Source: Oscillospiraceae bacterium (GTDB lineage Bacteria; Bacillota; Clostridia; Oscillospirales; Oscillospiraceae). Taken from it: 34,033 bases of DNA. Positions 6,331 through 20,737 of the stretch are shown here, piece by piece (within the stretch, counting starts at the first letter, position 1; every line of letters starts with the position of its first letter). Below the pieces are notes generated by a model that saw only the letters and a program-made list of their open reading frames with translations, was not told the origin of the DNA and did no database searches. A program made the position numbers and the translations under genes. Location of the stretch: positions 1-34,033 of the forward strand of contig JAFUMG010000011.1 in NCBI GenBank assembly GCA_017473225.1, in the 5' to 3' direction.

Positions 6331-6636
6331 TTATCGGAAGAAGAACAGCCACACCAGCAGGCAGATAATGCCCACCGCTAGTACACAGACAGGAAAAATG
6401 GTCAGAAACGCCGCGCCGATCATGGCGGGCAGATCGCCCTTTTCCAGCTGGAGCTTCTTCTCTTCCTCGATCAGCTCCTCCATAGTGGGGAGCTCATCCT
6501 TTTCCTTCCACTTGCCTTTGCCCCGATCCCGGACCTCGGCCTCCAGGGCCTCCCGCTCCGGGTCACGGCCCTCGGTACGCATTTTCCGCTCCCGGGACCA
6601 TTTCATCGCCCGGTTGATCTTTCGCTGCAGCAGCAT
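6331..6636 (-). CDS. Small single-helix membrane protein at the end of the opp operon
   Basis: The 101-residue product is not one I recognise. Residues 1-70 are strongly charged (many K, R and E, likely helical). Residues about 71-99 form one hydrophobic helix ending in LFFFR. It looks like a tail-anchored protein with its charged part in the cytosol. Translation is probably coupled to oppF: only three bases separate the oppF stop from this ATG, and the ribosome site AAGGAT lies in the last oppF codons. The operon terminator follows directly. Its position suggests a role with the transporter, but nothing in the sequence proves a function. Confidence 0.75.
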   Translation of the reverse strand: MLLQRKINRAMKWSRERKMRTEGRDPEREALEAEVRDRGKGKWKEKDELPTMEELIEEEKKLQLEKGDLPAMIGAAFLTIFPVCVLAVGIICLLVWLFFFR

Positions 6637-6639
6637 GGC

Positions 6640-8184
6640 TTAATCCTTGTTCTGCTCCAGAATGTGGTGGCAGGCGACAAAGTGATTGGGCCGGACCTCC
6701 TGCATCTGGGGCACCACCTGGGTGCAGACCTCGGTGCAGTACTTGCAGCGGGTGTGGAACTTGCAGCCCTTGGGAGGATTGACGGGGCTGGGGATGTCGC
6801 CCTCCAGGATCTCCAGCTCGCTGGACTGGTTCTCATCCGTGGTGGGGATGGCGTTCAGCAGGGCTTCGGTGTAGGGATGCAGAGGATGGGCGAAGATGTC
6901 GTCGGAAGGCGCCGTCTCCACCATGTTGCCCAGGTACATGACGCCGATCCGGTCAGAGATATACTTGACGACGGACAGGTCATGGGTGATGAACAGGTAG
7001 GTCAGGTTCTGCTTTTCCTTCAGGTCCTGCAGCAAATTGATGATCTGGGCCTGGATAGAAACGTCCAGGGCGGAGACCGCCTCGTCGCAGACCACGAATT
7101 TGGGATTCAGTGCCAGGGACCGGGCGATGCCGATACGCTGGCGCTGGCCGCCGGAGAACTGATGGGGATAGCGGTGCAGGAAGTAGGGCGCCAGGCCGCA
7201 CTCCTCCATGACCCGGATGATCTCGTCCTTCATCCGGTCGTCGTTGCGCCGGAAGAACTTGTGGGCGATCATGCCCTCGCCGATGATCTGGCCGACGGTC
7301 ATGCGGGAGTTCAGGGAGGAATAGGGGTCCTGGAAGATCAGCTGCAGGTCGCTGCGCAGGCCCCGCATCTCGGAATAGGTCAGACGGGCCAGGTCGATGC
7401 CGTTGCTGTGGTAGGCTTCAAACTCGGCGTAGCCGGGCTCGCTGCAGCAGTTCTTCCGCATTTCGGCGATCTCATTGTGGATCACATCGATGCGCTCGTT
7501 GATGGAAGCGATGTTCTTCAGGCAGGCATCCAGCTTTTCCTGAGCCTTGTCCAGCTTCTTCCGGGCAGCGGCGGTATCCTTACCGGCTTCCTCCGCCTTC
7601 TTCAGGGCGTAGGCCGCGTCATCCACATCCAGCTGGATGTCCATACGCTGGTCCTGAGCCTTGCGCAGCTCTCTGGAGACGCCGTATTCCTTCAGGAATA
7701 TCTCCTCCACGGGCTTCAGGTCGGGGGCGGCGAAAAGACCGCCGATCAGCGTCGCCACGTCCAGCATGGCGTCGTTGGCTTCCTTGCGCAGATGGGTCAG
7801 CTCGCCGTGCAGGGCGTACTGCTCCTGCTCGGTCTTCTTGTCATACTCCGCCTGGAATGCCTCGTACTTGGCCTTCTTCTCCTCCAGCTCCTTGCGGCGC
7901 CGGGTCAGGCTGCGGAAGGTATCATAGGCATAGCGGGGGGCCACCTCGTCGATGGAGCGGCCGAAATACATGGTCCGTCCGTCGGTCTGCTTATACAGCT
8001 GCAGGATGGAGCGGCCCAGGGTGGACTTGCCGCAGCCGGACTCACCGACCAGGCCGAAGGTCTCGCCTTCGTAGATGTCGATGGAAATACCGTCGTTGGC
8101 CTTGACGAAGGAACCCTTGCCCACAGGGAAATACTGCTTCAGATTGCTGATCTGCAGCAGCAGCTTTTTCTCTTTATTTTCCAT
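6640..8184 (-). CDS. oppF: Oligopeptide ABC transporter ATPase OppF with a large helical insertion
   Basis: This is one of the two nucleotide-binding subunits that power the importer at the inner membrane face. Family motifs are intact: Walker A GESGCGKST (47-55), Q-loop FQDPYSS (284-290), signature FSGGQRQR (343-350), Walker B VVCDEAVSALD (364-374) and switch His401. The C-terminal oligopeptide-transporter segment has Cys474, Cys480, Cys483 and Cys487, a pattern that can hold an iron-sulphur cluster in relatives. At 514 residues it is about 190 longer than typical OppF (about 320). The excess is one block, about 85-270, between Walker A and the Q-loop, rich in K/E heptads. The ATG at 8184 has GAAGGAGG just upstream and overlaps the oppD end by 11 bases. 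Confidence 0.93.
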   Translation of the reverse strand: MENKEKKLLLQISNLKQYFPVGKGSFVKANDGISIDIYEGETFGLVGESGCGKSTLGRSILQLYKQTDGRTMYFGRSIDEVAPRYAYDTFRSLTRRRKELEEKKAKYEAFQAEYDKKTEQEQYALHGELTHLRKEANDAMLDVATLIGGLFAAPDLKPVEEIFLKEYGVSRELRKAQDQRMDIQLDVDDAAYALKKAEEAGKDTAAARKKLDKAQEKLDACLKNIASINERIDVIHNEIAEMRKNCCSEPGYAEFEAYHSNGIDLARLTYSEMRGLRSDLQLIFQDPYSSLNSRMTVGQIIGEGMIAHKFFRRNDDRMKDEIIRVMEECGLAPYFLHRYPHQFSGGQRQRIGIARSLALNPKFVVCDEAVSALDVSIQAQIINLLQDLKEKQNLTYLFITHDLSVVKYISDRIGVMYLGNMVETAPSDDIFAHPLHPYTEALLNAIPTTDENQSSELEILEGDIPSPVNPPKGCKFHTRCKYCTEVCTQVVPQMQEVRPNHFVACHHILEQNKD

Positions 8185-9163
8185 TGCGGACCTCCTTCTC
8201 CGGATAGAAGCACCGGATCTCATGGCCCTCGCCGACCTTTACCAGCTCCGGCTCCTGCTCCATGCACTTTTCGGTGCAGTACTTGCACCGGGGGCCGAAC
8301 TTGCAGCCCTTGGGCAGGTCCAGGGGATGGGGCACCGCGCCAGGGATGGCGTCCAGCCGGGCGGCGTCGGTATCCAGACGGGGCACGGAGGCAAGCAAGC
8401 CCTCCGTGTAGGGGTGGGAGAACTTCGTATTGCTGCCGAAGAGGGTCTTGGCAGGCACATGCTCCACCACCTGGCCGCAGTACATGACGGCCACATCGTC
8501 GGCCATCTGGTTGATGACGCCCAGGTCATGAGTGATGAACATGATGGCGGTGCCGTGCTCCTTCTTCAGGTTGTTCATCAGGCGCAGGATCTGAGCCTGA
8601 ATGGTCACGTCCAGCGCGGTGGTAGGCTCATCCGCGATCAGCAGCTTGGGCTCACAGGCCAGAGCCATGGCGATCATGACTCTCTGGCGCATACCGCCGG
8701 ACAGCTGGTGGGGGTACTGCTTGACCACCACCTCGGGGTTGGGGATCTTCACGTCAGCCAGCATCTTGACGGCGGCCTTGGCGGCTTCCTTCTTGTTCAT
8801 GCCACGATGGATGATGAAGGGCTCGCTGAGCTGGCGCTCGATGGAGAAGACGGGGTTCAGGGCCGTCATGGGCTCCTGGAAGATGACGGAGATCTTGTTG
8901 CCGCGGATGTGGTACATCTCGTTCACGGAGACCTTCGTCAGATCCTGACCCTCGAACAGGATCTCGCCGGAATCCACATAGCCGTTGCCGTCCAGCAGCT
9001 TCAGGATGCTCATGGCGGAGACGGACTTGCCGGAGCCGGACTCACCGACGATGCCCAGGGTCTTGCCGGCGTCGATGGAATAGGACACACCGTTGACCGC
9101 CTTGACGGTACCACGGCGGGTCTTAAAATAAGTGTGCAGATCTTTTGTTTCAAGTAATGCCAT
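8174..9163 (-). CDS. oppD: Oligopeptide ABC transporter ATPase OppD
   Basis: This is the second ATPase of the importer, and a normal-length one (329 residues). Walker A is GESGSGKS (40-47), the Q-loop FQEPMTALNP follows at about 95-104, the signature is LSGGMRQR (154-161), Walker B is LLIADEP (174-180), and the switch His lies in FITHD. The C-terminal oligopeptide-transporter region has Cys287, Cys293, Cys296 and Cys300 in the same spacing as in OppF. AAGGAGG lies about 8 bases before the ATG. The stop codon overlaps the start of oppF, so the two ATPases should be made together. OppD has no insertion, so the OppF block is specific to its partner. Confidence 0.95.
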   Translation of the reverse strand: MALLETKDLHTYFKTRRGTVKAVNGVSYSIDAGKTLGIVGESGSGKSVSAMSILKLLDGNGYVDSGEILFEGQDLTKVSVNEMYHIRGNKISVIFQEPMTALNPVFSIERQLSEPFIIHRGMNKKEAAKAAVKMLADVKIPNPEVVVKQYPHQLSGGMRQRVMIAMALACEPKLLIADEPTTALDVTIQAQILRLMNNLKKEHGTAIMFITHDLGVINQMADDVAVMYCGQVVEHVPAKTLFGSNTKFSHPYTEGLLASVPRLDTDAARLDAIPGAVPHPLDLPKGCKFGPRCKYCTEKCMEQEPELVKVGEGHEIRCFYPEKEVRNGK

Positions 9164-9175
9164 TATGCTACCTCC

Positions 9176-11080
9176 TTAGCGTCCGTTGCTCTTGGGGTCC
9201 ATGGCATCACGCAGGCCGTCACCAATCAGGTTGATGCAGACGGTGCACAGACCGAAGATCGCCGCGGGGAATACCCAGCGCCACCAGTACTGCTGGATGA
9301 CGATGGAGTCGTTGCAGGTATTGAGCATATTACCCCAGGTGGGGGTGGGCGCGGTGATGCCGAAGCCCAGATAGGACAGGGTGGACTCAGTCAGCATGCA
9401 GGTGGCGAAGTCCAGGGTGATGGAGACCAGCAGCACGCTCATGACGTTGGGGATGATATGCTTGCGCAGGATGGTGCCCTCCTTGACGCCCAGAGCCTTA
9501 GCGGCAGTGACGTACTCCTGCTCACGCTGGCTGAAGATCTGGGCACGGACCAGACGGAAGGTGCCGACCCAGCTCAGGACGCCCAGCACCACCATGATGA
9601 TATACACGCGCTGAATGTTGCTGACGTCCTTGGGGATGACCGCAGACAGGATCAGCGCGAAGGGCAGGAAGGGCATACCGCCCACCACCTCGGCCACACG
9701 GCTGATGGTCATATCCAGCTTGCCGCCGAAGTAGCCCGCCAGGCCGCCCAGCAGCACGCCGATCAGCGTGGCGATGATCACGGCGATGGCGCCGACGGTC
9801 ATGGTGGTCTTACCGCCGTTGACGATACGGGCCAGCACGTCACGGCCCTGCTCATCAGTGCCGCACAGGAAGCCCTTCAGGCCCCAGGTCTCGATATCGC
9901 CGTCAGCGGTGATGGCGTAGTTCTGATAGCCGCCGCAGAACAGATCCACGATCTGCTCATCCTGCACGGAACCGGGGACGGAAGCCTGTCCGTACATATC
10001 GTCGCCCCAGGAGATCACATCGCCGTTTTCCAGCAGGGCGGTGAAATGATAGCGGCCGCCATAGAGCTTCACGGGATGGGACTCCATCACGGGAACCTCC
10101 TTTTCGCCCTTGGTGCTGACGCCCCAGACCCAGACCTTACCGGTCTCGTCCACCGCGGCGACGCACTGGGAGGAAGCGGCAATATCCACCACCTTCACGG
10201 AGCCGTTCTTCAGCTCCTCAGGCAGGTTCACATTCAGGGGAGAATCCTTCTGGTAGCCGGTATAGGCCACGGTGCCGTCCTTCAGCAGGCAGACATAGGC
10301 ATTGCTGGTGACAGCCACCTTTTCGATGTTGCCCTGGTATTTCCGGGGCTCGTAGCTCATGCCTTCCTCTTCCCGCTCCGCCTGACGGCAGTCCAGGTCC
10401 ACATTGGAGGCATTGCCCCACAGGTAGACGTTGCCGTCGGTATCCAGGATCACGGAGAACTGGTTGCCGGCTTCCAACTGCTTGATCTCCAGCTTGTTCA
10501 TCAGCAGGGCCCGGTTCAGCTCGGCATTGGACTGGTACTTATCCTGGTTCAGACGGTTGTTGCCCCAGAAATAGAAATTGTTGTCTTCATCGATAGCCAC
10601 CGCGTGGTCCAGGCCCGCTGCCATATAGACTACATTGACCTCACCGGTGGTCAGCTCCACGGGAACATCCTTCAGATCGATGGTATTGGAAACTCTGGTA
10701 TAGCCCCAGGTGTAGATCTTGCCCGCCTCGGACAGGCCCACACCATAAGTCTGTCCCGCGACGATATCGGCGATCCCCTCTTTGATCATTTCGTCGGGCA
10801 CGTCCATCATATTGTAGCCCGGCGCGATATTGGCCAGGTTGGAGTCGGAATGACCCAGGTCGATGGGCATGAAGTAGGGTCCGATCATGACCAGCGCGAA
10901 GATCAGCACGAACACGATCAGGCCGAAAACCGCGGTGGGACGGCGGAAAAAGTTCCGGGCAGTGACTCTGCCGGGACTCTGGAGGGCTTCCTCCTCCTGG
11001 AAATTCAATTCTTTCTTCTTAATACCGAACATCCGGCCCAGGACAGCGCCGAAGGTGGATTTTTTCTTTTCTTTCGCCAT
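9176..11080 (-). CDS. oppC: Oligopeptide ABC permease OppC with an inserted seven-repeat RCC1-like beta-propeller
   Basis: This permease subunit has 634 residues; normal OppC has about 300. Residues 1-48 are a charged cytosolic tail and 49-70 the first membrane helix. Residues about 85-403 do not belong to the permease fold: they contain seven repeats (about 103-129, 148-176, 199-225, 252-278, 295-323, 337-362, 377-403), most reading V/I-x-AG-x3-x-A-x-L-x-E-x-G-x-V/I-Y-x-WG. That is the blade pattern of RCC1/BLIP-II-type propellers. The permease then resumes exactly at GTDEQGRDVLAR (407-418), followed by further helices and the EAA loop (about 522-545). By topology the propeller faces outwards, where the binding protein docks. 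The ATG at 11080 has AAGGAGG 8 bases upstream; a GTG three codons earlier overlaps that site. Both ends are in frame with no break. Confidence 0.93.
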   Translation of the reverse strand: MAKEKKKSTFGAVLGRMFGIKKKELNFQEEEALQSPGRVTARNFFRRPTAVFGLIVFVLIFALVMIGPYFMPIDLGHSDSNLANIAPGYNMMDVPDEMIKEGIADIVAGQTYGVGLSEAGKIYTWGYTRVSNTIDLKDVPVELTTGEVNVVYMAAGLDHAVAIDEDNNFYFWGNNRLNQDKYQSNAELNRALLMNKLEIKQLEAGNQFSVILDTDGNVYLWGNASNVDLDCRQAEREEEGMSYEPRKYQGNIEKVAVTSNAYVCLLKDGTVAYTGYQKDSPLNVNLPEELKNGSVKVVDIAASSQCVAAVDETGKVWVWGVSTKGEKEVPVMESHPVKLYGGRYHFTALLENGDVISWGDDMYGQASVPGSVQDEQIVDLFCGGYQNYAITADGDIETWGLKGFLCGTDEQGRDVLARIVNGGKTTMTVGAIAVIIATLIGVLLGGLAGYFGGKLDMTISRVAEVVGGMPFLPFALILSAVIPKDVSNIQRVYIIMVVLGVLSWVGTFRLVRAQIFSQREQEYVTAAKALGVKEGTILRKHIIPNVMSVLLVSITLDFATCMLTESTLSYLGFGITAPTPTWGNMLNTCNDSIVIQQYWWRWVFPAAIFGLCTVCINLIGDGLRDAMDPKSNGR

Positions 11081-11093
11081 ATTCGGCACCTCC

Positions 11094-12113
11094 TTACTTA
11101 TTCACGCGGATTCTGGGATCCACGAAACCGTATGCCAGATCCGTGATCAGATTGCCCAGCAGCGCCACCACGGTATAGAACATCTGGATGGCCAGGCACA
11201 GCTCCGCGTCACTGCCGTTCAGCGCCTTGATATACAGCGCGCCCATACCGTTCAGGCCGAAGACGTTCTCCAGGACCAGAGAGCCGGAGAACACGCTCAG
11301 GAACCAGCCGATGATGGAGGTCACAACAGGCAGCAGGGCGTTGCGCCAGGCGTGGGAGTAAATGACCACCCGCTCCTTGACGCCCTTGGCCCGGGCGGTG
11401 CGGATGCAGTCCATGCTCAGCGCGTCGATCATGGAAGCACGGACGTAACGGCTCATGCCGCCCAGGGCGCCGAAGAGGCTGACCAGGATGGGCAGGGACA
11501 TGTAATACAGCCGGTCCAGCAGCTCCCGCAGGCCGGTGTAGGTGCTGCCGGGGGTCGCGGCGCCGTTGACGGGGAACCACTTGAGCAGCACCGCAAAGAC
11601 AAAGATAAAGATCAGCGCGATGATATACTGGGGCAGAGAGTAGCCCAGAATGGTGAAGGCCTGAACGCCCTGGTCCAGCTTGCTGCCCTTATGGACAGCG
11701 CACCAGATGCCCAGCGGGATGGTCACCGCCAGCGTCAGGATGGTTGTAAAGATATTGAACAGGATCGTATTGGCCATGGGCGTCTTGATGACGTCCACGC
11801 AGTCCTTCTGCCGCAGCAGAGAATAACCGAAATTACCCTGCAGCAGGCCATCAAATTCACCGCTCTGCTTGTCCGGCATAAAGCCGATCCAGCGGGCATA
11901 GCGGATCACGATGGGATCATCCAAACCCATTTTGTCCCGCAGCTCCTCATACATCTGCTGGTAAGCCTCGGGCTTCATGGACTTCTTCACACCCTCCAGC
12001 TGGTTTCTGGCGGGGTCAGAGGGGATCAGGCTGAACAGGCAGTACATCAGGAAGGACGTGATGAAGAACACGACCACGATGTATACCAAACGTTTCATAA
12101 TGTATTTTGGCAA
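11094..12113 (-). CDS. oppB: Oligopeptide ABC permease OppB
   Basis: OppB is the first membrane subunit of the importer and pairs with OppC to form the channel. It begins with the family-typical KYIMKRLVYIVVVFF segment, then an outside region of about 70 residues, then five further helices. The EAA loop that contacts the ATPase reads ARAKGVKERVVIYSHAWRNA. I favour the TTG at 12113 (MPKYIMKRL) because a long ribosome site, GGAAGGTGATC, is spaced correctly; a GTG at 12122 lies inside that site and an ATG at 12098 would cut the conserved N-terminus. About 339 residues, usual for the family. It ends 13 bases before oppC. Confidence 0.92.
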   Translation of the reverse strand: MPKYIMKRLVYIVVVFFITSFLMYCLFSLIPSDPARNQLEGVKKSMKPEAYQQMYEELRDKMGLDDPIVIRYARWIGFMPDKQSGEFDGLLQGNFGYSLLRQKDCVDVIKTPMANTILFNIFTTILTLAVTIPLGIWCAVHKGSKLDQGVQAFTILGYSLPQYIIALIFIFVFAVLLKWFPVNGAATPGSTYTGLRELLDRLYYMSLPILVSLFGALGGMSRYVRASMIDALSMDCIRTARAKGVKERVVIYSHAWRNALLPVVTSIIGWFLSVFSGSLVLENVFGLNGMGALYIKALNGSDAELCLAIQMFYTVVALLGNLITDLAYGFVDPRIRVNK

Positions 12114-12204
12114 AATGATCACCTTCCGTTAATTAGTAGGATTCGGCCCAAACCCAAAAAGCGGTCTGGACCGGATGCAGGGATGTTTCGTCGAATGGGT
12201 TCTT

Positions 12205-12329: not shown

Positions 12330-14321
12330 TTACTGAGCGCTGGGAATGGAAGCGTAAACGATGGCGTCAGCGAAATCCCAGAAGGAGTTCTGCTCATAAC
12401 CTTCGACCCAAGAGGGAACGGCGGTGTAGTAGATGTTGCAGTACAGGGGGATTTCGGGGAGCAGCTCGTTCCAGCGAACGATGTACTGCTGCCACAGATC
12501 CAGGTAAGCCTCGTAATCACCGGGCTCAACCGCGTAGACCATGTCCATGGACAGCTGGTCCAGGCCGCCCTCGCCCATGTCGAACAGGTAGTTGGAGTTG
12601 TAACCCATAGCGACATAGTCGGGATCGTCGGTCCAGTTGAAGGAGTAGTCGTACAGAGCGGAGGTGAAGCCGGTAGCCAGGTTCAGCATGCCGTACTCGG
12701 GAGCGACCTTGTTGCCGTCAGCGTCCTCGTGGTAGATGGCGCCCAGCAGGCCGTTCCAGTCGCCGACGGTCAGGACGATCTCCATACCGGACTGAGCGAC
12801 AGCGTCGGAGTTGGCCAGCATGATGGCCAGCAGGTCGGAAACGGGGTTGCCCTCAGTGGAGTACCACTGGATCTGCAGGGGCATCAGAGTCTTGCCGCCA
12901 ACCTCGATGCAGCCATCGGTGTTGACATCCAGACCAGTGACATCCTTGTGGCGCAGGCCATCCTCGGAGGAGGTCCACTCATTGCCCTCGGCGGTCAGAG
13001 TCCAGCCGCCCTCGGCCAGCTCGGCGTTGGCAGCGTCAACGTCGTAAGCGTAGGACTTCAGGTTATCAGCCAGGAAATCCTTGGAGTCCATGTACATCTG
13101 CAGGCAGGTAGCGTAAGGAGCGTCGACAGTGGTGCCGAAGCCCTGGCAGAAGGTGTTGACGAACTCGTCACGGTTCAGAAGCTGAGCGACAGCGTGACGG
13201 ACTTCCACGAACTGGGTGGGGCCCACGTCGCACAGGAACTGGATCTTGCCGTAGCCGGCGCGGTCGTAGGCGATCGCCCGCAGCTCGGCGCCCTCGTCGA
13301 TCATATCCAGCAGGGTGTTGATGTCATCACCGTCGGTGATGCCGGCATAGATATCCATGCCGCCGGTCTTCAGCTGGTCAGCCCAGGTGGCGTCCTCAGC
13401 ACGGACCACAACGATGGTCTGGATGGAGGGCTTCACGCCTTCGAAGTTACCGGCATAGTTGGGGTTGATGTCCAGGGTGCACTGGGAGGTAGCGGGATCA
13501 TACTTGGTGATGCTGTAAGGACCGGCGGAGACATAGCCGTCGGTAGCGGACATGGCAGCGCGGAAGTTGGCCTCAGCGTCGCCGCCGCCTTCCAGAACGA
13601 TGGCCTCACCGTTCAGGGTGATGTAGCAGCCCTCGCCGTCATCGGCGATGCCGTAGCCCTCACCCAGCCAGAACTCTTCGTTCCAGGGGGAGACAGCGGC
13701 ATAGGTGTCAGCGTAGTAGTAGTTGGCGTAGTCGGCCACGATGGTCAGGCTCAGGGTGTACTCGTCGATCAGGTGCAGACCGGAGACGTAGTTCACCTCA
13801 CCGGCGTAAGCGGCAGCGCCGCCCACGATCATGTCCTTGGTGCCGGAAGTGAAGCTCAGCGCGGAAGCGAAGGGAGTGCAGCTCTTCATGACGGAGAAAG
13901 CGTAGTCCTTCGCAGTGATGGGCTCGCCGTTGTTGTACACCAGGCCCTCATTGATGGTGATGGTGTAGGTGGCGGTGCCATCCTCATTGTCGGTACGGCT
14001 CCACTCCTTCATGACAGTGGGGTTCTCGACATAGTTGCCGCCCTGGTTGGCGACCATGGTGCCATAGTCATTGACCAGGTCGTAGATCATCATGTCGGAC
14101 GCGCCGTTGGTGACCAGACCGCCGGTGAAATCACCGGTCAGCTCGGTGATGTCGCCCAGGATGACCTTGTTCTCGCGGACCTCTGCAGCATCGGTTGCAG
14201 GAGCCTCGGTGACGTCAGCGGCATCGGTGGGAGCCGCGGTGGCGTCGGTGTTGTTGCCGCCGCATGCAGCCATAGAGATGACCATCATGACAGCCAGCAG
14301 CAGTGCCAGAAACTTTTTCAT
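12330..14321 (-). CDS. oppA: Oligopeptide-binding lipoprotein OppA (SBP family 5)
   Basis: This is the substrate-binding subunit, a lipoprotein held on the outer face of the membrane. It has a K-K-rich start, a hydrophobic signal (4-19) and a lipobox ending at Cys20 (SMAAC), then a T/A/D-rich linker to about residue 45. The body matches family 5 binding proteins, with ITAKDYAFSVM near the domain start and an aromatic-rich C-terminal half. At 663 residues it is longer than enterobacterial OppA (about 540). AAAGGAGG lies 9 bases before the ATG. It is the first gene of the operon, with its own strong promoter and long leader. The peptide preference cannot be read from sequence. Confidence 0.93.
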   Translation of the reverse strand: MKKFLALLLAVMMVISMAACGGNNTDATAAPTDAADVTEAPATDAAEVRENKVILGDITELTGDFTGGLVTNGASDMMIYDLVNDYGTMVANQGGNYVENPTVMKEWSRTDNEDGTATYTITINEGLVYNNGEPITAKDYAFSVMKSCTPFASALSFTSGTKDMIVGGAAAYAGEVNYVSGLHLIDEYTLSLTIVADYANYYYADTYAAVSPWNEEFWLGEGYGIADDGEGCYITLNGEAIVLEGGGDAEANFRAAMSATDGYVSAGPYSITKYDPATSQCTLDINPNYAGNFEGVKPSIQTIVVVRAEDATWADQLKTGGMDIYAGITDGDDINTLLDMIDEGAELRAIAYDRAGYGKIQFLCDVGPTQFVEVRHAVAQLLNRDEFVNTFCQGFGTTVDAPYATCLQMYMDSKDFLADNLKSYAYDVDAANAELAEGGWTLTAEGNEWTSSEDGLRHKDVTGLDVNTDGCIEVGGKTLMPLQIQWYSTEGNPVSDLLAIMLANSDAVAQSGMEIVLTVGDWNGLLGAIYHEDADGNKVAPEYGMLNLATGFTSALYDYSFNWTDDPDYVAMGYNSNYLFDMGEGGLDQLSMDMVYAVEPGDYEAYLDLWQQYIVRWNELLPEIPLYCNIYYTAVPSWVEGYEQNSFWDFADAIVYASIPSAQ

Positions 14322-16347: not shown

Positions 16348-17247
16348 ATGAAAAAGATCATTGCATTTGTCCTGGCGCTGACCATGCTGGGCTGCATGTT
16401 CGCCGGCTGCGGCTCCAGCAGCGCTTCCGACGACACCGATTATTCCACCATGACCATCGAGGAGCTGAAGCCCCTGCTGAAGACCATTACCAGCGGCAAG
16501 CTGACCATGGTCACCTCCCCCGACTTCGCCCCCTATGAGTTCTACGCCCTGGATGCCGACGGCAACCCCACCATGGCCGGCTTTGACGTGGCCCTGGGCC
16601 AGTACATCGCCGATTACCTGGGTCTGGAGCTGGAGATCATCCCCATGGACTTCGACGGCACCATCTCCGAGCTGGGCGCCGGCAAGGCCGACATCGGCAT
16701 GGCCGGTTACTCCCCCGATCCCGACCGTGAGAACGCCATGAGCTTCTCCGAGATCTACTACACCGGCGGCCAGTCCTTCGTCTGCCACGCCGACAACGCT
16801 GCCAACTTCGCTTCTCTGGCTGACGCCAACAAGGCTGAGTACCAGATCGGCGCTCAGATCGGCTCCATCCAGGCTGACCTGGCCAAGGAGAACACCCCCG
16901 ATGCGGACATCGTGGAGCTGGGTAAGGTCACCGACATCATCGCCGAGGTCATCGGCGGCAAGCTGGACGGCGCTTTCATCGAGACCGTCGTAGCTCAGAC
17001 CTACGCCAAGAACTATCCCGAGCTGTGCGTCGTTCTGGATGTTCCCTATGATCAGGAAGGCTCCGTCGTGGGCGTCAACAAGAACAATCCCGCGCTGCTG
17101 GCCGCTGTGAACCTGGCCATCCAGGCCGCTCTGGAAGACGGCTCCATGTCCCAGTTCGTGGCTGAGGCCAACGAGCTGTCCACCGGCGACAAGTACGAGG
17201 GCCTGCTGACCGACGAGGGCGAGGTCCCCACCGAAGCAGCCGAATAA
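16348..17247 (+). CDS. Amino-acid-binding lipoprotein (SBP family 3)
   Basis: This is the substrate-binding subunit of a polar amino-acid ABC importer. A signal peptide is followed by a lipobox ending at Cys21 (MFAGC; Cys16 in MLGC is an alternative) and a Ser-rich linker. The family 3 core includes LTMVTSPDFAPYEF, a GFDVALGQYIADYLGLEL segment, and an ADIGMAGYSPDPDRE segment. Length 299 residues, normal with a linker. AAAGGAGAA lies before the ATG. It heads an operon whose permease gene begins 535 bases later across a block of palindromes, unlike the other, tightly packed genes. The amino acid cannot be told from sequence. Confidence 0.92.
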   Translation: MKKIIAFVLALTMLGCMFAGCGSSSASDDTDYSTMTIEELKPLLKTITSGKLTMVTSPDFAPYEFYALDADGNPTMAGFDVALGQYIADYLGLELEIIPMDFDGTISELGAGKADIGMAGYSPDPDRENAMSFSEIYYTGGQSFVCHADNAANFASLADANKAEYQIGAQIGSIQADLAKENTPDADIVELGKVTDIIAEVIGGKLDGAFIETVVAQTYAKNYPELCVVLDVPYDQEGSVVGVNKNNPALLAAVNLAIQAALEDGSMSQFVAEANELSTGDKYEGLLTDEGEVPTEAAE

Positions 17248-17252
17248 ATCAC

Positions 17253-17473
17253 ATTGTGGTTATCGGCTTTAAAAAGTACGCACAGCGGAAAACCAGCAAA
17301 AGCAGTTGTCATCCTGAGCGAGCGGAGCGAGTCGAAGGATCTTGGCACCGATTTGAGTGCAAATGTTATCTTAATGCGTAGATTCCTCGACTCCGTTTCA
17401 CTCCGCTCGGAATGACATGTCGTCACGTTGTTCGTTTTGACAGTTTTGCTGACGAAAACCGATAGTCACAAAT
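17253..17473. repeat. Modular palindromic repeat, copy 5 (diverged ends)
   Basis: The core (17307-17417, 111 bases) begins TGTCATCCTGAGCGAGCG and ends GGAATGACA; it matches the reverse complement of the core at 6123-6234, including an internal GATCTTGGCACCGATTT segment. The outer ends are an imperfect inverted pair, ATTGTGGTTATCGG (17253-17266) and CCGATAGTCACAAAT (17459-17473), which looks like a decayed form of the ends of the other copies. Confidence 0.7.
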
Positions 17474-17486
17474 CACGTTTATCCGC

Positions 17487-17520
17487 CAACTCCCCGGAAG
17501 TCTGACTTCCGGGGCAGTTG
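17487..17520 (+). terminator. GC-rich hairpin after the binding-protein gene
   Basis: Arms CCCCGGAAGTC (17492-17502) and GACTTCCGGGG (17504-17514) are flanked by CAACT/AGTTG. No T-tract follows, so this may stabilise the 3' end of the binding-protein message instead of terminating it. Confidence 0.5.
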
Positions 17521-17530
17521 TGTTGATAAG

Positions 17531-17584
17531 GGAACACCTTCTAAAAATGGCCATTGTAAAAACGGCTATTTTTAAAAGGTGTTC
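17531..17584. repeat. Inverted repeat in the binding-protein/permease spacer
   Basis: GAACACCTT with TAAAAAT-GGCC on the left (17532-17552) pairs with GGCTATTTTTA-AAGGTGTTC on the right (17564-17584), with small interruptions. It directly precedes the larger palindromic element. Confidence 0.65.
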
Positions 17585-17592
17585 AGATACCA

Positions 17593-17754
17593 GGCAACCT
17601 CTAAAAACTGCTTTTTGGTGATTTGGGCAGAAGATTTTGGCTCAGAAAAAGTTTTGGAAACGACGGAATACTTTGTGTATTGCGGCGTTTTCAAAACGCA
17701 TTTGTGGGGCAAAAGATTCGCCCAAAGCCCAAAAGGGGAGTTTTTAGCGGTGCC
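17593..17754. mobile_element. MITE-like long palindrome (about 160 bases)
   Basis: The two halves are near complements over their whole length: CTCTAAAAACTGC near the left end matches GGGGAGTTTTTAG near the right; TTTGGGCAGAAGATTTTGG matches CAAAAGATTCGCCCAAA; the centre is near 17672 (AATAC-TTTGT-GTATT). It carries no gene. This size, symmetry and lack of coding capacity suggest a non-autonomous element. Its right end adds false coding sequence before the permease start. Confidence 0.65.
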
Positions 17755-17782
17755 CACCCAAAACAGAAAGGAGCAATCACCC

Positions 17783-18544
17783 TTGTTATCCGCAAAAGGC
17801 TTTGAAGCCGCAATCAGCTACATCCAGCTCTTCCTGGAGGGTCTGGTCACCACCGTTACGCTGTCCGCCCTGACCGTTATCTGCGGTTTTGTGCTGGCGC
17901 TGGTGCTGGCGCTGATGCGCATGTCCAATCTCCGTCCCCTGCGCTTTCTGGATAAGCCCGGCGCAGGCCGCTTCGCCAGAGTCCTGAGTAAGTTCAATCC
18001 CATCAGTCTCGTCGCCAACGTCTACGTCGAGGTCTTCCGGGCCACCCCCCTGCTGGTCCAGCTGTTCATCGTCTATTACATCATCCTGGCCGGCGTTTCC
18101 CTGCCCGCCTTCAAGCTCTTCGGCATCATCCGCTTCGAGCGCATGATCCCCGGTGTCATCGCCCTGAGCCTGAACTCCGGCGCGTACCTGTCCGAGATCA
18201 TCCGCTCCGGCATCCAGTCCATCGACGGCGGCCAGACCGAAGCCGCCCGGAGCCTTGGCATGACCCAGTACCAGAACATGCGCTACATCATCCTGCCCCA
18301 GGCCATCAAGAACATCCTGCCCGCCATCGCCAACGAATTCGTGACGATCATCAAGGAGTCCTCCATCTGCTGGACCATCGGCGTGCAGGAGATCATGTTC
18401 GCGGTCAACTCCGTCAAGGCCGCCACCTATTTCATCGGCGAGCCCCTGATCATCGCGGCGTGTGTCTATTTCTGCCTGACCTTCCCCACCTCCAAGATCA
18501 TCGCGTATTTCGAAAGGAGAATGAGCCGTGGCGACAAACGATAA
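17783..18544 (+). CDS. Polar amino-acid ABC permease (HisM/GlnP type)
   Basis: This membrane subunit pairs with itself or a partner to form the channel of the amino-acid importer. The 253 residues contain the typical [19 protein letters not shown] start, several hydrophobic helices, and the EAA loop [20 protein letters not shown], which contacts the ATPase. The reading frame is open as far upstream as 17579, but that part is the palindromic element. AAAGGAG lies 9 bases before TTG at 17783, giving a family-like N-terminus. I see no promoter of its own, so it may depend on read-through from the binding-protein gene. It overlaps the ATPase gene by 17 bases. Confidence 0.9.
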
Positions 18545-19304
18545 GCTGATCCAGGTCAAGAACCTGAAAAAATACTACAACCGGGGCGCGCTCCACGCTC
18601 TGGACGATGTCTCCGTGGACATCAACAAGGGCGATGTCATGGTGGTCATCGGTCCCTCCGGCTCCGGCAAGTCCACCCTGCTTCGCAGCCTGAACCTGCT
18701 GGAAGAGCCGACCAGCGGCGAGATCATCTTCCACGGCATCGACATCACCAAGAAGAAGTTTACCAATAAGGACGGCAAGACCGAGAAGGTCAACATCAAC
18801 CTCCACCGCCAGAAGATGGGCATGGTGTTCCAGCACTTCAACCTCTTCCCCCACAAGACCATCCTGGACAACATGACCCTGGCCCCCGTGAAGGTGCTGG
18901 GCATGGACCAGAAGGCCGCGGAAGAGAAGGCCCTGGGCCTGCTGGACCGTGTCGGCCTGAAGGACCGGGCCGGTGCCTACCCCATCCAGCTCTCCGGCGG
19001 TCAGAAGCAACGTGTGGCCATCGTCCGGGCCCTGATGATGGAGCCCGAGGTCATGCTCTTCGACGAGCCCACCTCCGCCCTCGACCCCGAGATGGTCGGC
19101 GAGGTTCTGGAGGTCATGAAGGAGCTGGCCCGGGACGGCATGACCATGGTGGTGGTCACCCACGAGATGGGCTTCGCCCGCGAGGTGGGCAACCGGGTGC
19201 TGTTCATGGCCGACGGCCAGCTGCTGGAGCAGGGCTCCCCCGAGGAGATCTTCAGCGCTCCGAAGCATCCCCGGCTCCAGGATTTCCTTTCCAAGGTGCT
19301 GTAA
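18528..19304 (+). CDS. Polar amino-acid ABC ATPase (GlnQ/HisP type)
   Basis: This is the energising subunit of the amino-acid importer. It has Walker [10 protein letters not shown] (42-50), Q-loop FQHFNLFPH (101-109), signature LSGGQKQR (155-162), Walker [13 protein letters not shown] (175-186) and switch His in VVTHEMGFA. At 258 residues it is slightly longer than typical (about 242) because of a lysine-rich loop at about 75-90 ([12 protein letters not shown]). The GTG start has AAAGGAGA 8-9 bases upstream within the permease gene. Its stop codon TAA shares a base with the start of the M20 gene (TAATG), so translation is likely coupled. Confidence 0.94.
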
Positions 19305-20737
19305 TGATGGACAAGCAGAATATCTACCGCTATATCGACAAGAAGCAGCATACTCTCTGGGAACTCAGCGACAAGATCTGGGACTATTCCGAGCTCTCCA
19401 TGCTGGAGTTCAAATCCGCCGCGGAGTATATCCGGGTGCTGGAAGCGGAGGGCTTCACCGTTCAGAAAAATCTGTGCGGGATTTCCACCGCCTTCTCCGG
19501 CTCCTTCGGCTCCGGGCGGCCCATCATCGGCATTCTGGGCGAGTATGACGCTCTGTCGGGCCTTTCCCAGAAGGCCGGCTCCGTGGAGCACAAGCCCCTG
19601 GTAGAGGGCGGCTGCGGCCAGGGCTGCGGCCACAATCTGCTGGGCGCCGGCTCCCTGGGCGCCGCCATGGCCATCAAGCATGAGATCGAGGCCGGGAATC
19701 TGAAGGGCACCGTGATCTTCTACGGCTGCCCCGGTGAGGAAGGCTGCGCCGGCAAGACCTTCATGGCCCGGGAGGGCGTGTTCCGCAAGCTGGACGCGGC
19801 CCTGGCCTGGCATCCCGGCGACACCAACGAGATCACCACCGGCTCCAACGCGGCCTCCATGCAGGTGGAGTACAGCTTCCACGGAATCGCCGCCCACGCC
19901 GCCGACGATCCCTACAACGGCCGCTCCGCCCTGGATGCCGCCGAGCTGATGAACGTGGGCGTTCAGTTCCTGCGGGAGCATATGCGGCCCAAGGAATCCA
20001 TCCACTATTCCTTCGCCGACGCCGGCGGCCTGTCCCCCAATGTGGTCCAGCCCACGGCGAAGCTGATCTACATGGTCCGGGGCGAGACGGTCCAGAAGGC
20101 CAAGGCCCTCCTGAAACGGGTGGACAACATCGCCCGGGGCGCTGCCCTGATGACGGACACCACCGTCACCAGCCGCCAGATCGACGGCACCGCCTCCACC
20201 GTCTCCAACCATGTGCTGGAGGAGGTGCTCTATCAGAACCTCTGCGCCGCCCCCCTGCCGGAATACACCGAGGACGAGGTAGCCTTCGCCGCCGCGCTGA
20301 AGAGCACCTACCACACCTCCGACCTGCCCGGCAAGCGCACCGCCGAGGACTGGAAAATCCGGACCTTCGTCATGGAGAAAACCCAGGGCGGCTCCGTCCC
20401 CCTGAACAATTTCGTGATGCCCTACTCCCCTTCCAACACCTTCAGCCCCGGCTCCTCCGATGTGGGCGACGTCAGCTGGCTGACCCCCACGGCCCAGTTC
20501 ACCGCCGTGACCTGGACCTCCGGCTCCCCCGGCCATTCCTGGCAGAATGTCTCCATCGGCAAGACCCCCATCGCCTACAAGGGCATCGCCCTGGCGGCCA
20601 AGGTCCTGGCCGGCGCCGCCGCGGACCTGATGGAGGACCCCGCGCTGCTGGAACGGGCCCGGGAGGAATTCGAAGCCGCCACCAGCGAAGGCTACGACTG
20701 CCCCATCGGCCGGGAAGTCAAGCCCACCGCCGGATGA
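19304..20737 (+). CDS. M20 family amidohydrolase (AbgB-like)
   Basis: This is a zinc-dependent peptidase/amidohydrolase, M20D branch, that would cut amide bonds in the cytosol. The 477 residues match the length of AbgB, a p-aminobenzoyl-glutamate hydrolase subunit. Visible motifs are LGEYDALSGLSQ (78-89), the metal ligand in GCGHNLLG (His110), the catalytic PGEEG (about 143-147), AWHPGD (His170) and AAHAA in the dimerisation domain. There is no signal peptide. It is the last gene of the amino-acid transporter operon and overlaps the ATPase stop. This suggests that the imported compound is an acylated or amide-linked amino acid, split after uptake; that is inference. The exact substrate is unknown. 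Confidence 0.9.
   Translation: MMDKQNIYRYIDKKQHTLWELSDKIWDYSELSMLEFKSAAEYIRVLEAEGFTVQKNLCGISTAFSGSFGSGRPIIGILGEYDALSGLSQKAGSVEHKPLVEGGCGQGCGHNLLGAGSLGAAMAIKHEIEAGNLKGTVIFYGCPGEEGCAGKTFMAREGVFRKLDAALAWHPGDTNEITTGSNAASMQVEYSFHGIAAHAADDPYNGRSALDAAELMNVGVQFLREHMRPKESIHYSFADAGGLSPNVVQPTAKLIYMVRGETVQKAKALLKRVDNIARGAALMTDTTVTSRQIDGTASTVSNHVLEEVLYQNLCAAPLPEYTEDEVAFAAALKSTYHTSDLPGKRTAEDWKIRTFVMEKTQGGSVPLNNFVMPYSPSNTFSPGSSDVGDVSWLTPTAQFTAVTWTSGSPGHSWQNVSIGKTPIAYKGIALAAKVLAGAAADLMEDPALLERAREEFEAATSEGYDCPIGREVKPTAG

Follow-up and report, generated by a model that had tools for sequence, protein, structure and literature searches.

An OppC permease with an RCC1-type repeat head in a complete opp operon: a proposed docking platform for the peptide-binding protein

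The opp locus

The window, by which we mean the whole stretch of 34,033 nucleotides that was analysed, holds genes for OppA, OppB, OppD and OppF beside that for OppC, and thus a complete oppA-B-C-D-F operon. The genes and their features are listed below by position in the window, with the basis of each assignment in brackets where one was recorded.

6331..6636, minus strand: single-helix membrane protein of 101 aa, directly after oppF (one hydrophobic stretch)
6640..8223, minus strand: oppF, ATPase, 527 aa as listed
7381..7956, minus strand: stretch of oppF with a coiled-coil-like insert of ~190 residues, Walker A to Q-loop
8174..9163, minus strand: oppD, ATPase, 329 aa, with ordinary Walker A-signature spacing (115)
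9176..11080, minus strand: oppC with an RCC1-type head, 634 aa (frame and Pfam)
9179..9874, minus strand: OppC permease core, residues 403-634, including the GTDEQGRD junction (BPD_transp_1 at 441-630 and OppC/DppC chains)
9875..10819, minus strand: seven-repeat RCC1/BLIP-II-type head, residues ~88-402 (Pfam, matches to solved chains, repeat self-similarity)
10820..11080, minus strand: OppC residues 1-87, with the predicted cytoplasmic N-terminus, TM1 (hydrophobic 44-76) and a short outside linker (Pfam OppC_N at 35-87 and hydropathy)
11094..12122, minus strand: oppB, 342 aa, without a large extra domain (Pfam)
12330..14321, minus strand: oppA, 663 aa, SBP_bac_5 binding protein, lipoprotein-like by eye (Pfam)

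The true start of oppF may be the ATG 13 codons into the listed frame. Judged from its sequence, the system would be a type I Opp peptide importer whose permease bears an extracytoplasmic domain. The operon is conserved among the loci that carry an OppC with this head: oppA lies directly upstream of oppB in all 55 testable headed loci, and oppF downstream of oppD in 59 of 59. Three features of this report were absent from the earlier note on this DNA: the OppF insert, the small membrane protein, and the other inserts at the same point of OppC.

A second importer cluster is found on the plus strand of the window (16348-20737), where genes for an SBP_bac_3 protein, a BPD_transp_1 permease and an ABC ATPase are followed by that of an M20-type peptidase (19304-20737).

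The permease core and the repeat head of OppC

The oppC gene reads from an ATG at 11080 to a stop ending at 9176, and the single open frame of 634 residues described in the earlier note is real; its strand, which that note did not give, is minus. The two Pfam families of the permease, OppC_N (residues 35-87) and BPD_transp_1 (441-630), are both above their cut-offs, and the region from about residue 399 to 632 is a sequence match to solved OppC/DppC chains. By this layout the head sits between TM1 and GTDEQGRD, in agreement with the proposal that the permease is interrupted after helix 1 and resumes at that motif.

The profile search that had been suggested for the inserted segment found RCC1_2 above cut-off in six stretches (E 4.6e-29), while the RCC1-like domain PF25390 (E 1e-41) reached 143.9 bits, just below its curated cut-off of 150. 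Chains of BLIP-II, HERC2, RCC1 and UVR8 are also sequence matches of the head. The seven blade cores end at residues 126, 173, 222, 275, 320, 359 and 400, at a spacing of 39-53 residues; six of them end in WG, and blade 4 ends in TG. The earlier count of seven repeats, most with the WG-ending RCC1/BLIP-II pattern, is therefore borne out, and the spacing of 40-53 given with it is accurate to a single residue. The cores resemble each other far beyond chance, their mean pairwise BLOSUM62 score being 28.4, whereas 2000 shuffles gave no value above -4.9. We infer from these matches and repeats that the head folds as a seven-blade propeller of the RCC1/BLIP-II type.

OppC homologues have their N-terminus inside the cell. 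In the window OppC, the first 46 residues are rich in Lys and Arg (11 K/R, 5 D/E), a single hydrophobic segment (44-76) lies ahead of the head, and no segment inside the head exceeds a hydropathy of 1.6, the maximum being 0.97; over 70 relatives the highest in-head value is 1.59, which is near the 1.6 threshold. On the basis of hydropathy, charge and homology, the head would lie on the outer face of the membrane, between TM1 and TM2, and the earlier placement of the segment in the first outside loop of a genuine OppC is thus supported.

Conservation and spread of the headed OppC

Including that of the window, 84 closed full-length headed OppCs were collected. A scan of genome contigs gave 126 confirmed stretches among 133 candidates, of which 80 were kept; 73 of these (L008-L080) span part or all of the head, and the other 7 (L081-L087) cover the permease only. 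Three loci were dropped as copies (L001, L088, L089), and eight frames cut at contig ends (L054, L067, L068, L069, L072, L074, L105, L107) stand outside the 84, which were reduced to 70 at 92% identity for alignment (A1). Headed OppCs come from records labelled Clostridia, Oscillospiraceae, Lachnospiraceae, Erysipelotrichaceae, Christensenella and others, mostly draft metagenome assemblies, and also from a named strain, Hungatella effluvii DSM 24995 (L053). In a phylum sample they were found in at least 14 of 398 genomes, the window's own included (E <= 1e-120), a lower bound because a maximum of three candidates was scored per genome; in a genus sample they were found in at least 24 of 121 (E <= 1e-90), likewise a lower bound, as some genomes had more candidates than were scored.

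A quick tree was made from 57 OppC cores, comprising 34 picked by hand from the 84, L138, and 22 other OppCs which, out of 30 loci considered, passed a pattern. The RCC1 type occupies one side of a branch with an SH-aLRT of 99. One row, L082, is a long stop-to-stop frame only, so that its label as a headed OppC is an artefact, and its removal lowers the number of head changes on the tree from three to two.

On the quick tree, the headed OppCs of the window's own genus form two separate lineages, L093-L106 and the window, a pattern that suggests transfer from one lineage to another. Locus L042, labelled Petrimonas (Bacteroidota), has a headed operon with sizes and scores nearly those of L041 (Clostridiaceae); its label is probably a binning or naming error.

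Relatives share 30-79% identity with the window in the head and 56-90% in the core. The head is under purifying selection: between the window and L008, L009 and L010, its dN/dS is 0.18, 0.24 and 0.35, compared with 0.10, 0.14 and 0.27 for the core. The junctions are nearly fixed in length, at 21 residues on the C-side in 62 of the 70 aligned sequences and 22 in the remaining 8, and at 31 on the N-side in 65 of 70, and their sequence (WGLKG...GTD..GRD) is conserved. Such constancy points to a rigid mounting more than to a loose tether. The earlier note had set a misassembly absent from close relatives against its own reading; the insertion is present in many relatives, and a misassembly or chance fusion is ruled out by the 84 closed full-length versions, the single clade of cores, the fixed junctions and the purifying selection.

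Conservation within the head is uneven. Residue H345, along with D158, H159, R176, Q179, Q386 and N387, is invariant or nearly so; the 3-4 loops are far more variable than the blade cores, with a mean majority frequency of 0.27 versus 0.56-0.71. Variable loops of this kind are what one might expect if the head anchored the importer to some other partner outside the cell, such as a cell-surface peptidase or a wall or host protein, and propellers of the RCC1/BLIP-II type do include known protein binders, as stated in the available text of PMC9218822. The genes around the headed operons speak on both sides of this suggestion. Seven neighbour clusters were annotated through their representatives. 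The three largest of all the clusters are the small membrane protein, an M3 peptidase, and a set without a Pfam match, of which one tested member lies antisense to an M3 peptidase. Members of the M3 cluster (3 of 3 representatives) lie close to the operon at 19 of 73 loci, and those of an M42 aminopeptidase cluster (one representative) at 5; examples are the genes at L051:279-2108, L064:1009-2802, L013:2-2149 and L049:10741-11829. However, these peptidase genes lie on either strand, none of the neighbour clusters exceeds 19 of the 73 loci, and M3 and M42 peptidases of this kind are usually cytoplasmic. We regard an anchoring role as rather improbable. The nearby peptidases are consistent with peptide import, but they do not name the substrate.

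Other inserts at the same loop

The RCC1-type head is not the only large insertion at this point of OppC. Other OppCs of the genus and order have frames of 460-717 residues with the surplus length before the GTD segment; among the loci are L003, L110, L111, L114, L117-L120 and L122-L128, where the inserts measure about 120-380 residues. At E 1e-3, BLAST sorts these 15 inserts into four groups, and none of them matches the window head at the same threshold. Seven inserts were scanned with Pfam (L110, L003, L142, which is the same gene as L003, and L144, L145, L146, L147): no family was above cut-off in any of them, and each lies between OppC_N and BPD_transp_1. On the core tree, with the L082 artefact excluded, differently headed OppCs stand at two places at least, apart from the RCC1 clade. 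At a guess, the ~120-residue head of L003/L127 may be parvulin-like.

One might conclude from this variety that the loop is merely permissive, and that the head is a tolerated, mostly structural insertion with no specific partner. The recurrence of large inserts at one point, in four BLAST groups and at two or more places on the tree, fits such a reading. It sits poorly with the conserved junctions, the (nearly) invariant residues of the head, the purifying selection and the long retention of the head in one clade, and we consider it very unlikely. Because this one loop of OppC bears a propeller-type domain in one clade and large domains of different appearance in other OppCs, it is a candidate for a specificity module.

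The OppF insert and the small membrane protein

The distance from Walker A to the signature in the window OppF is 297 residues, as compared with 107-109 in six of seven non-headed Opp operons and 199 in the seventh, L145. The insert is coiled-coil-like by eye, and two glycines near its middle are invariant over 54 sequences. Of 97 F ORFs in the first locus set, it is present in 69 and absent from nine, the remaining 19 (two of them copies) being too short to judge; the nine without it belong to six Pseudomonas loci that have no head, to the second operon in L060, and to L092 and L105, where they stand beside a headed OppC. L145 has a further oddity, an OppD frame of 721 aa (L145:5947-8109, minus strand) beside a differently headed OppC, with a Walker A-signature gap of 487 residues.

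Head and insert are strongly associated in their occurrence. The insert model matches 14 of the 398 genomes of the phylum sample, and 13 of these also have the head; one genome has the head alone and one the insert alone. In the head-only genome (G494) the contig edge comes just after oppC. In the insert-only genome (G332, locus L171), an oppDF pair with the insert has no adjoining oppC, the OppC matches cover the permease only, and the neighbours of oppDF resemble, by eye, threonine dehydrogenase and glycine C-acetyltransferase genes. The genus sample of 121 genomes contains 20 with both parts, four with the head only (G020, G058, G544, G568) and one with the insert only (G003), whose contig ends before oppC. 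An ordinary OppF was seen beside the head in three of the four (L105, L092, L179). The head can thus persist without the insert: in G058 and G568 it occurs together with an ordinary OppF and the small membrane protein.

The small membrane protein at 6331-6636 has no Pfam match. A hydrophobic small ORF is found within 300 bases after 64 of 67 closed insert-bearing oppF ORFs, the exceptions being L010, L042 and L067, and the 64, when aligned, have in common an MLFQKKxxRA-like stretch at the N-terminus and the motif EKGDxxAMI...P; in a further set of headed operons (L149-L156) such an ORF is present in 8 of 8. Seven non-headed operons were examined for comparison. In four of them (L143, L144, L146, L148) the gene after oppF encodes a small membrane protein of another kind, with a DDDGRxIADM-like motif; L145 has a larger hydrophobic ORF at that place, and L142 and L147 show no small membrane ORF there. 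Partners of this sort may therefore be more widespread among Opp operons.

These associations bear on the possibility that the head is a sensor of an outside peptide, glycan, or host or microbial protein that acts through OppC on the ATPases, the insert of OppF and the small protein serving as a relay. The co-occurrence of head and insert (13 genomes in the phylum sample, 20 in the genus sample) and the regular presence of the small ORF would both suit a sensor. So would the covariation of evolutionary distances, in which the best partner of the head is the OppF insert (partial r 0.30; 0 of 999 permutations), although fast-evolving parts of one operon can share such a signal. Against it stand the four genus genomes with a head and no insert match, three with an ordinary OppF in view, and the different small membrane protein of the four operons without an RCC1 head; the co-occurrence itself may be plain co-inheritance of one operon. 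A sensor is, in our judgement, unlikely. Even less probable is a two-sided arrangement in which propeller, insert and small protein would form a transmembrane signalling axis, so that the running of the importer would depend on an outside ligand of the propeller and not on loaded OppA alone.

A proposed role in OppA docking

The reading we prefer, with a probability of about one in two, is that the head serves as a rigid docking platform for OppA. The propeller, held close at both ends, would form a rigid platform on OppC; OppA, loaded and tethered to the membrane, would be received by it and oriented over the OppB/OppC pore. The coiled-coil-like OppF insert and the small membrane protein would belong to this machine too, probably with a part in its assembly or regulation. 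Docking is argued from the position of the head, the near-rigid junctions, the dedicated OppA and the precedents in other importers; on position and on analogy with MalF-P2 and the pneumococcal AmiC, it is the mechanism with the best support. The purifying selection on the head, the protein binders known among RCC1/BLIP-II propellers, and the similar pace at which head and OppA change also speak for it.

A mirror-tree comparison fails as proof of OppA docking, since OppA does not stand out in it as partner of the head. The mean distances of head and OppA are alike (0.74 and 0.69 over 57 loci). Once the contributions of B, D, C core and F core are taken out as background, their partial r is 0.10, which is not significant, 131 of 999 permutations being as high. 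The value for OppA and OppB is 0.54 (background D, F core and C core), and that for OppA and the OppF insert is 0.14 (22 of 999 permutations). There is no simple charge match either, since head and OppA are both acidic, with median net charges per 100 residues of -4.4 and -9.4 over the 57 loci.

As major gates for nutrients, peptide importers raise the question, in our judgement an open one, of how each binding protein comes to its own permease among many. To this textbook machine, the insert in OppF and the small protein encoded after it add two parts that can be tested.

Comparison with known systems

The earlier note knew of no described oligopeptide importer of this design. Among the literature matches listed, with most subscription papers and all preprints outside the scope, there was no importer with a propeller head on its permease, nor one with such an OppF insert; the one listed paper with both "RCC1" and "ABC transporter permease" is, by its listing, a regulon study (PMC5359404). 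This is weak evidence that the design is undescribed, and an importer of the same general plan was already known from MalF-P2 and AmiC, according to PMC3150292 and PMC11192437.

The core of the window OppC matches the OppC families, Opp4C and related permeases among them. It differs from these in its additional head and in its score for the NCBIfam Opp4C model (NF045476), where 286.4 bits falls short of the equivalog cut-off of 350.

MalF-P2 belongs to a different loop and has a different fold from the OppC head. The likeness is that of a large outside loop domain on the permease of a type I importer which touches the binding protein: in the maltose importer, as described in the available part of PMC3150292, MalF-P2 contacts MalE. 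It is also smaller (MalF residues 91-271 in the same text) and serves a sugar importer.

The other precedent is the pneumococcal Ami importer, against which the window differs in that its OppB is ordinary and its OppC bears the head. AmiD is the counterpart of OppC, and AmiC that of OppB. Like the window system, Ami is an Opp-type peptide importer from a Gram-positive bacterium, and one of its permeases has a large part outside the cell: two extracellular domains of AmiC, ECD1 and ECD2, are predicted to clamp the binding proteins. In the Ami model, the stretch of AmiD between TM1 and TM2 makes contact with lobe 2 of the binding protein (PMC11192437). In that same text the large part is on AmiC residues 31-278 and is not termed a propeller, while AmiD has a short coil at 64-99.

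The head resembles the BLIP-II/RCC1 propellers in its repeat pattern and matches them significantly in sequence. Of these, BLIP-II is a secreted binder and RCC1 a eukaryotic nuclear protein, as given in the available text of PMC9218822, whereas the repeats of the window are built into a permease.
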